Below, one piece after another: positions 11,356 through 11,700 of a stretch of DNA of 29,338 nucleotides. Numbering within the stretch: position 1 is the first letter of the stretch; every line of letters starts with the position of its first letter. The stretch comes from a virus. Under the pieces are notes generated by a model. It had not been told where the DNA came from. It made no database searches and saw only the letters and a list, made by a program, of their open reading frames with translations. Location of the stretch: positions 1 to 29,338 of the IMG/VR virus record IMGVR_UViG_3300020573_000151, one strand, 5' to 3'. The position numbers and the translations under genes are program-made.

Positions 11356-11577
11356 TTAGCCAGCAAAGCGATAGAAAGCAGTGCGGCGACCGTCTACGTC
11401 ACGATAGTTTGTATAGATTGTGTAATACTCACGAAGATCATAAACACGCTTGGAAACATTCTCACGAGGAACACGGGCTAGTGAAGCAACCTTATCGGCA
11501 GTAACACCAGCACCAGTGTTATACTTGCGAAGAACGTTCTCAATCTTCTCAATCTGAGACTTACGATTAGTAGCCAT
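11356..11577 (-). CDS. small winged-helix-like DNA-binding protein candidate, 73 aa
   Basis: The start is ATG 11577 with GGAG 9 nt before it; an ATG 15 nt upstream would place the ribosome site inside the gene. The pattern fits a small winged helix: SQIEKIENVLRKY (helix 1), VTADKVASLARVP (helix 2), RENVSKRVYDLREYY (recognition helix) and a beta wing YTNYRDVDGRRTAFYRF. It is basic, with no extra domain. It follows the MoxR gene, and its leader carries interlocked inverted repeats, so autoregulation or control of the MoxR/VWA genes is possible. Fold assignment is by pattern only. Confidence 0.65.
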   Translation of the reverse strand: MATNRKSQIEKIENVLRKYNTGAGVTADKVASLARVPRENVSKRVYDLREYYTIYTNYRDVDGRRTAFYRFAG

Positions 11578-11602
11578 TATATATTTCTCCATTCAAAGTT
11601 TT

Positions 11603-11653
11603 TGATGCTGGTGGTCGTGAAAGGAAAGGACCCGTGTATAACCACCAGCATCA
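11603..11653 (-). promoter_or_regulatory. leader inverted repeat A (13 bp)
   Basis: TGATGCTGGTGGT (11603-11615) and ACCACCAGCATCA (11641-11653) pair perfectly over 13 bp around a 25-nt loop. In the transcript of the winged-helix gene this is a strong 5'-UTR hairpin ending 25 nt before the start codon. Its loop carries CUUUCCUUUCACG, and its second arm shares a base with repeat B. Confidence 0.8.
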
Positions 11654-11669
11654 TTTTATTATACACGGG
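11631..11669 (-). promoter_or_regulatory. leader inverted repeat B (11 bp), interlocked with A
   Basis: CCCGTGTATAA (11631-11641) and TTATACACGGG (11659-11669) pair perfectly over 11 bp. One arm lies in the loop of repeat A and one outside it, so the two hairpins interlock (order B'-A'-B-A in RNA). They exclude each other or form a pseudoknot. The upstream arm contains the only good -10 hexamer here, so B may instead be an operator. Confidence 0.8.
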
Positions 11670-11687
11670 CATTCATTATAGAGTCAC
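11658..11687 (-). promoter_or_regulatory. weak promoter candidate for the winged-helix gene
   Basis: Minus strand GTGACT (11687-11682), 18-nt spacer, TATAAT (11663-11658). The -10 is perfect, the -35 matches four of six. A second TATAAT at 11680-11675 has no acceptable -35. If used, transcription would start near 11651 and lose one arm of repeat B. Confidence 0.4.
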
Positions 11688-11700
11688 AGCCATGCGACTC
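11681..11700 (-). terminator. hairpin after the MoxR-like gene
   Basis: Minus-strand RNA GAGUCGCA-UGGC-UGUGACUC: an 8-bp stem (one G.U) with a 4-nt loop, 35 nt beyond the MoxR stop. It is followed by UAUAAUG rather than a U-tract, so termination would be weak. It may separate MoxR from the next leader or be processed. Confidence 0.5.

Follow-up and report, generated by a model that had tools for sequence, protein, structure and literature searches.

An H-type pseudoknot, most likely a post-transcriptional control element, predicted in the leader of a winged-helix gene of T4-like phages

The window, the whole 29,338-nt stretch analysed here (positions 1 to 29,338 of the IMG/VR virus record IMGVR_UViG_3300020573_000151), belongs to a T4-like phage, with PHROGs matches to a RegA-type repressor, clamp, clamp loader, late sigma factor, helicase and Hsp20. 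On its minus strand, a gene encoding a 73-aa protein (11356-11577) follows a MoxR gene. The product has no significant Pfam or PHROG family, and its predicted fold is a winged helix (pLDDT 85.6), in agreement with the winged-helix-like character first assigned to it from the DNA letters. Between the stop codon of MoxR (11735) and the start ATG of the 73-aa gene (11577) lie the two perfect inverted repeats of the original prediction, A (13 bp) and B (11 bp), which were found exactly where they had been placed and together span 11603-11669.

All features of the leader lie on the minus strand. Repeat B, here stem S1, has its 5' arm at 11659-11669 (CCCGUGUAUAA in RNA) and its 3' arm at 11631-11641 (UUAUACACGGG), and repeat A, stem S2, has its 5' arm at 11641-11653 (UGAUGCUGGUGGU) and its 3' arm at 11603-11615 (ACCACCAGCAUCA). 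The arms are thus ordered B'-A'-B-A on the coding strand, with the single base 11641 common to both repeats; 13 bp for A requires assigning this base to A, as one base cannot pair in both stems simultaneously. Loop 1 comprises 5 nt (11654-11658) and loop 3 comprises 15 nt (11616-11630, UCCUUUCCUUUCACG), and the Shine-Dalgarno GGAG (11587-11590) lies 12 nt downstream of S2. A sigma-70-like promoter (11658-11687, GTGACT-18-TATAAT), scoring 10 of 12, is embedded in the structure: the TATAAT earlier noticed in one arm of B is its -10 (11663-11658), which overlaps the S1 5' arm, and GTGACT lies 18 bases upstream. Upstream of the repeats is an additional hairpin, P0 (11681-11700, GAGUCGCA-UGGC-UGUGACUC), which was absent from the original prediction and whose arms (11693-11700 and 11681-11688) form 8 pairs, one of them G-U.

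A strict topology scan gave a single hit in the 29-kb window and 0.0 in dinucleotide-model shuffles, showing that the B'-A'-B-A arrangement is not due to chance. The same scan of two near-complete phage genomes returned the element plus 1 and 3 further matches, three of these four being inside open reading frames and the remaining one being short. In searches of Rfam, the leader had no match at gathering cut-offs and only chance-level matches at E-values up to 5, and the relatives' loci gave nothing but tRNA, for an insert in loop 3.

Searches with the MoxR and winged-helix proteins yielded 99 distinct leaders of the same winged-helix gene, which share a common topology but are nearly unrelated in sequence. 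Among 50 non-redundant leaders, 36 contain a strict H-type pseudoknot, against 0.22 expected from dinucleotide shuffles, and in none of the 36 did any shuffle equal the observed score. On this comparative evidence, the element would be classed as an H-type pseudoknot in an mRNA leader. The S1 5' arms are diverse, each with its own complement (GCTCCACAGTGG, CAGATACTATGG, TCCATCAAGGTG, ATACCGAGAATGG, AGTGATTGATTGGT and CCCGTGTATAA). In many of the other 14 leaders, the knot is present but has irregular pairs, an S1 that is short or a loop 3 that holds a tRNA-like insert; about a quarter of the leaders are without the strict form, and L190, L191 and L193 seem to have lost the knot.

The comparison with related phages that was proposed along with the original prediction was strongly positive for both stems. 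In an alignment of the window's subgroup (25 relatives), built without structure information, 96.5% of the cells of the two stems pair and 12 of the 23 pairs have changed on both sides, the covariation counts, like the G-U counts given below, coming from leaders that are kin and hence from non-independent events. Neither value was equalled in 500 shuffles, and shifting the pairing partners along the alignment lowers pairing to 28-44%. By stem, 99.6% of cells are paired in S1, with double-sided changes in 5 of 11 pairs, and 93.7% in S2, with double-sided changes in 7 of 12 pairs. These patterns suggest that the knot is kept by structure and not by sequence, and that the interlocked repeats are a real, apparently undescribed gene-control element. 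P0 analogues also covary in many relatives (L055, L049, L063 and L127, as well as L353 from phage Melnitz), with G-U pairs on the coding strand, and in many relatives P0 falls inside the spacer between the -35 and the -10 of the promoter. Among the unpaired stretches of the subgroup, loop 3 (UCCUUUCCUUUCACG in the window) is conserved best, although flanked by variable stems, and may be a protein site.

The winged-helix gene occurs in exactly one copy in 17 of 18 related phage records scanned and is absent from one. The knot stays beside this gene when extra sequence intervenes after MoxR (L012-L016), and it persists in loci with tRNA-Arg genes instead of MoxR ahead of the gene (L100/L272 and L274; L273 by eye, with G-U pairs). 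In L299, the distant relative found in another context is preceded by a knot that differs but has this topology too. From its position in these sequences, the element appears to travel with the winged-helix gene to other genomic places. Among isolated phages, no homologue with two window-type proteins was found; cyanophage CobS loci gave a MoxR match only, and searches of bacterial genomes found none. The cultured phages HTVC008M, Melnitz and Mosig carry more distant relatives of the winged-helix protein, with different leaders. Inspection of the leaders of these three phages and of DLP6 revealed no clear copy of the knot, that of Melnitz having a spacer hairpin and, by eye, only a weak knot. 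In HTVC008M (L352, 2065-2214), the gap between CobS and S21 has a strong hairpin and a tRNA-Gly(ACC), and a stem closed by TAATGTA/TACATTA would lie immediately ahead of the start codon of S21.

The position of the promoter divides the transcripts of this leader into two predicted classes. A sigma-70 promoter scoring at least 9.5 of 12 is present in 33 of 54 leaders (1.3% of shuffles), with a perfect TTGACA-17-TATAAT in many relatives, and in most promoter-bearing leaders no more than about 4 nt separate the end of the -10 from the start of S1. The predicted start cuts S1 down to 5-9 bp in most relatives, where it lies within the 5' arm of this stem; in the window's subgroup it falls at the S2 5' arm (about 11651 here), so that the S1 5' arm is lost. 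The full knot is therefore expected only in transcripts read through from MoxR. A start site downstream of 11650 that removes one arm of B, with no protein binding the B dyad, had been named as refuting the original prediction, and its start-site part applies in part: the predicted start removes the B 5' arm from the promoter's own transcripts, and B is present in read-through RNA only. Between the -10 and the predicted +1 lie 6 nt that, despite differing sequences, are paired in 121 of 132 cells, which points to selection on the read-through RNA; this pairing requires these nucleotides to function either as read-through RNA or, with lower likelihood, as DNA. A separate observation is that AAGAATAC or a similar sequence lies directly upstream of S1 in L008, L020, L133, L178, L144 and others, with and without a promoter.

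The original prediction preferred a two-state RNA switch, in which hairpins A and B alternate co-transcriptionally or upon ligand binding, and regarded a full pseudoknot as strained by a 5-nt connector. The connector is indeed tight for a 13-bp stem, and in the knot the pairing of A is probably limited to its junction-side half. The family as a whole favours the knot. In most relatives, B has 10-15 bp and mostly -11 to -25 kcal/mol, while A has 5-8 bp and -3 to -9 kcal/mol alone, so that A could not displace B; mutually exclusive stems of comparable stability are thus not a feature of the family as a whole, and A has no obvious role in most relatives except as the second stem of the knot. Loop 2 usually measures 0-1 nt, a length that fits the coaxially stacked stems of a pseudoknot, and neither hairpin hides or frees the Shine-Dalgarno. 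Judged from these sequences, the pseudoknot would be the common design of the family and an A/B switch is implausible there. In the window's subgroup, A is lengthened to 11-14 bp (-14 to -22 kcal/mol, against -12 to -16 for B) and can match or displace B, making competition between them possible; the nested fold of lowest energy for the read-through leader has A without B, a type of prediction that cannot display knots. Overall, we consider the switch improbable. The repeats might also act in DNA, with B, or B and A together, as a palindromic repressor site over the promoter, perhaps for the winged-helix product itself. B does bracket the -10 and the start region, the gene product is a predicted winged helix, and B reads CCYGTGTATAA with few changes inside the window's subgroup, where the comparison of repeat and protein conservation is neutral. 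Across the family, however, the repeats are almost completely different between phages even though the recognition helix KRxxDLR is conserved; moreover, the spacing between the arms is variable and the stems persist in leaders without a recognisable promoter. A further distinction comes from irregular pairs, since G-U on the coding strand is A-C on the other strand. With a helix search that penalised the two equally, the G-U:A-C ratios were 20:3 in S1, 8:2 in S2 and 16:4 in P0 (some chance stems included in the last), again among kindred leaders, while an initial search under stricter settings returned 20:8 and 5:1. Although the B mismatches of the window's subgroup alone fail to separate RNA from DNA and the leaders with a tRNA-like insert show both mismatch kinds, selection appears to act on the coding-strand RNA. 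The operator, raised originally as the alternative for B, is consequently weak and highly unlikely.

A terminator would also act in RNA: S1 with a pyrimidine-rich loop 3 would halt transcription that enters from MoxR, RNA begun at the embedded promoter, with the S1 5' arm partly or wholly missing, would escape, and S2 would be an extra 5' hairpin. The predicted +1 inside or past the S1 5' arm suits this scheme, and five of six MoxR loci without a following winged-helix gene have a canonical terminator instead (two are identical here). As in an intrinsic terminator, a stable hairpin is followed by a raised T content, if weakly so (3.6 versus 2.3 in the 8 nt after S1), and five or more T occur in those 8 nt in 10 of 43 leaders, against a background of 5.5%. 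Most leaders, however, including those with a perfect S1, are without a real U-tract (CCAACAAA, CTTAAACC and CATCCCAC), and a terminator scan of the window calls none here. The second, interlocked stem, which covaries and whose conservation a terminator leaves unexplained, is a further difference, and termination is thus an unlikely function. Two other candidates were rejected. A leader peptide, suggested here by an ATG at the A 5' arm opening a 25-codon frame that ends TAATG at the start codon, is contradicted by single-base loop 3 indels that break the frame (L004 and L229) and by L017, which has no such ATG. For sequestration of the Shine-Dalgarno by a stem or by loop 3, no consistent pairing was seen.

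We therefore favour, with a probability of about 0.7, an H-type RNA pseudoknot that is most likely a cis-acting post-transcriptional control element of the winged-helix gene. The precedent for this reading is the pseudoknot in the leader of T4 gene 32, which is bound by the gene's product to repress translation (PMC535899, PMC3014915). By analogy, a protein may recognise the folded knot, which would end about 12 nt before the Shine-Dalgarno, by its shape and so limit ribosome loading, the simplest candidate being the gene's own basic winged-helix product; alternatively, the knot may protect the 5' end of the message. Translational control would have to be indirect, as the ribosome site lies inside neither stem. 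Among these proposals, binding by the gene's own product is put tentatively at somewhat short of even odds, some other ligand or role is possible, and protection of the 5' end is rather unlikely. For transcripts from the embedded promoter, the predicted start lies within the 5' arm of B in most relatives and at that of A in the window's phage, and such RNAs may form either a knot of reduced length or simply hairpin A at their 5' terminus.

The knots of gene 32 in T4, T2 and RB69 resemble the present element in that they are of the H-type, lie upstream of the ribosome site and belong, in a T4-like phage, to the leader of a gene whose protein is of a nucleic-acid-binding type (PMC3014915, PMC535899). 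The two are nevertheless analogous and not homologous. The gene and the protein fold differ, with a 73-aa winged helix here instead of a single-strand binding protein; S1 here is mostly 10-15 bp; the knot-to-Shine-Dalgarno gap is about 5-18 nt, whereas in T4 more than 40 nt of less structured RNA intervene; hardly any sequence is conserved across the present family; and a promoter is embedded in the stem. In Escherichia coli, the S15 pseudoknot involves the ribosome-binding site, whereas the Shine-Dalgarno is outside both stems here, and the proteins are unrelated. The likeness is that the rpsO (S15) pseudoknot lies in the translational operator of a self-controlled gene (as cited in PMC3014915). 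The present element is a second, independent and apparently widespread candidate leader pseudoknot in T4-like aquatic phages, distinguished by unusually strong covariation and a start-site-dependent design.

In eight leaders (L039, L040, L041, L044, L046, L219, L231 and L239), loop 3 is replaced by a 72-75-nt tRNA-like element with an encoded CCA, whose acceptor stem varies compensatorily (GCGGAG/CTCCGC and GCGAAG/CTTCGC). One of these inserts is above the Rfam tRNA cut-off. The anticodon loop is not a regular 7-nt loop, so that ARAGORN assigns no amino acid where it finds the insert at all. In a broader and doubtful scheme, one DNA segment, in which promoter and pseudoknot overlap, would give two leader RNAs, with a complete knot in read-through transcripts and a cut one in those from the promoter, the winged-helix protein, although of a DNA-binding type of fold, would recognise the knot by shape whatever its sequence and control its own mRNA in just one transcript class, and the tRNA-like loop would let tRNA-processing enzymes cut the knot in some phages. 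In a distant branch (L275 and L284), a covarying palindrome surrounds the -10 (GTTTTAAG/CTTAAAAC versus GTTCTAAG/CTTAGAAC) and is followed by a covarying hairpin.
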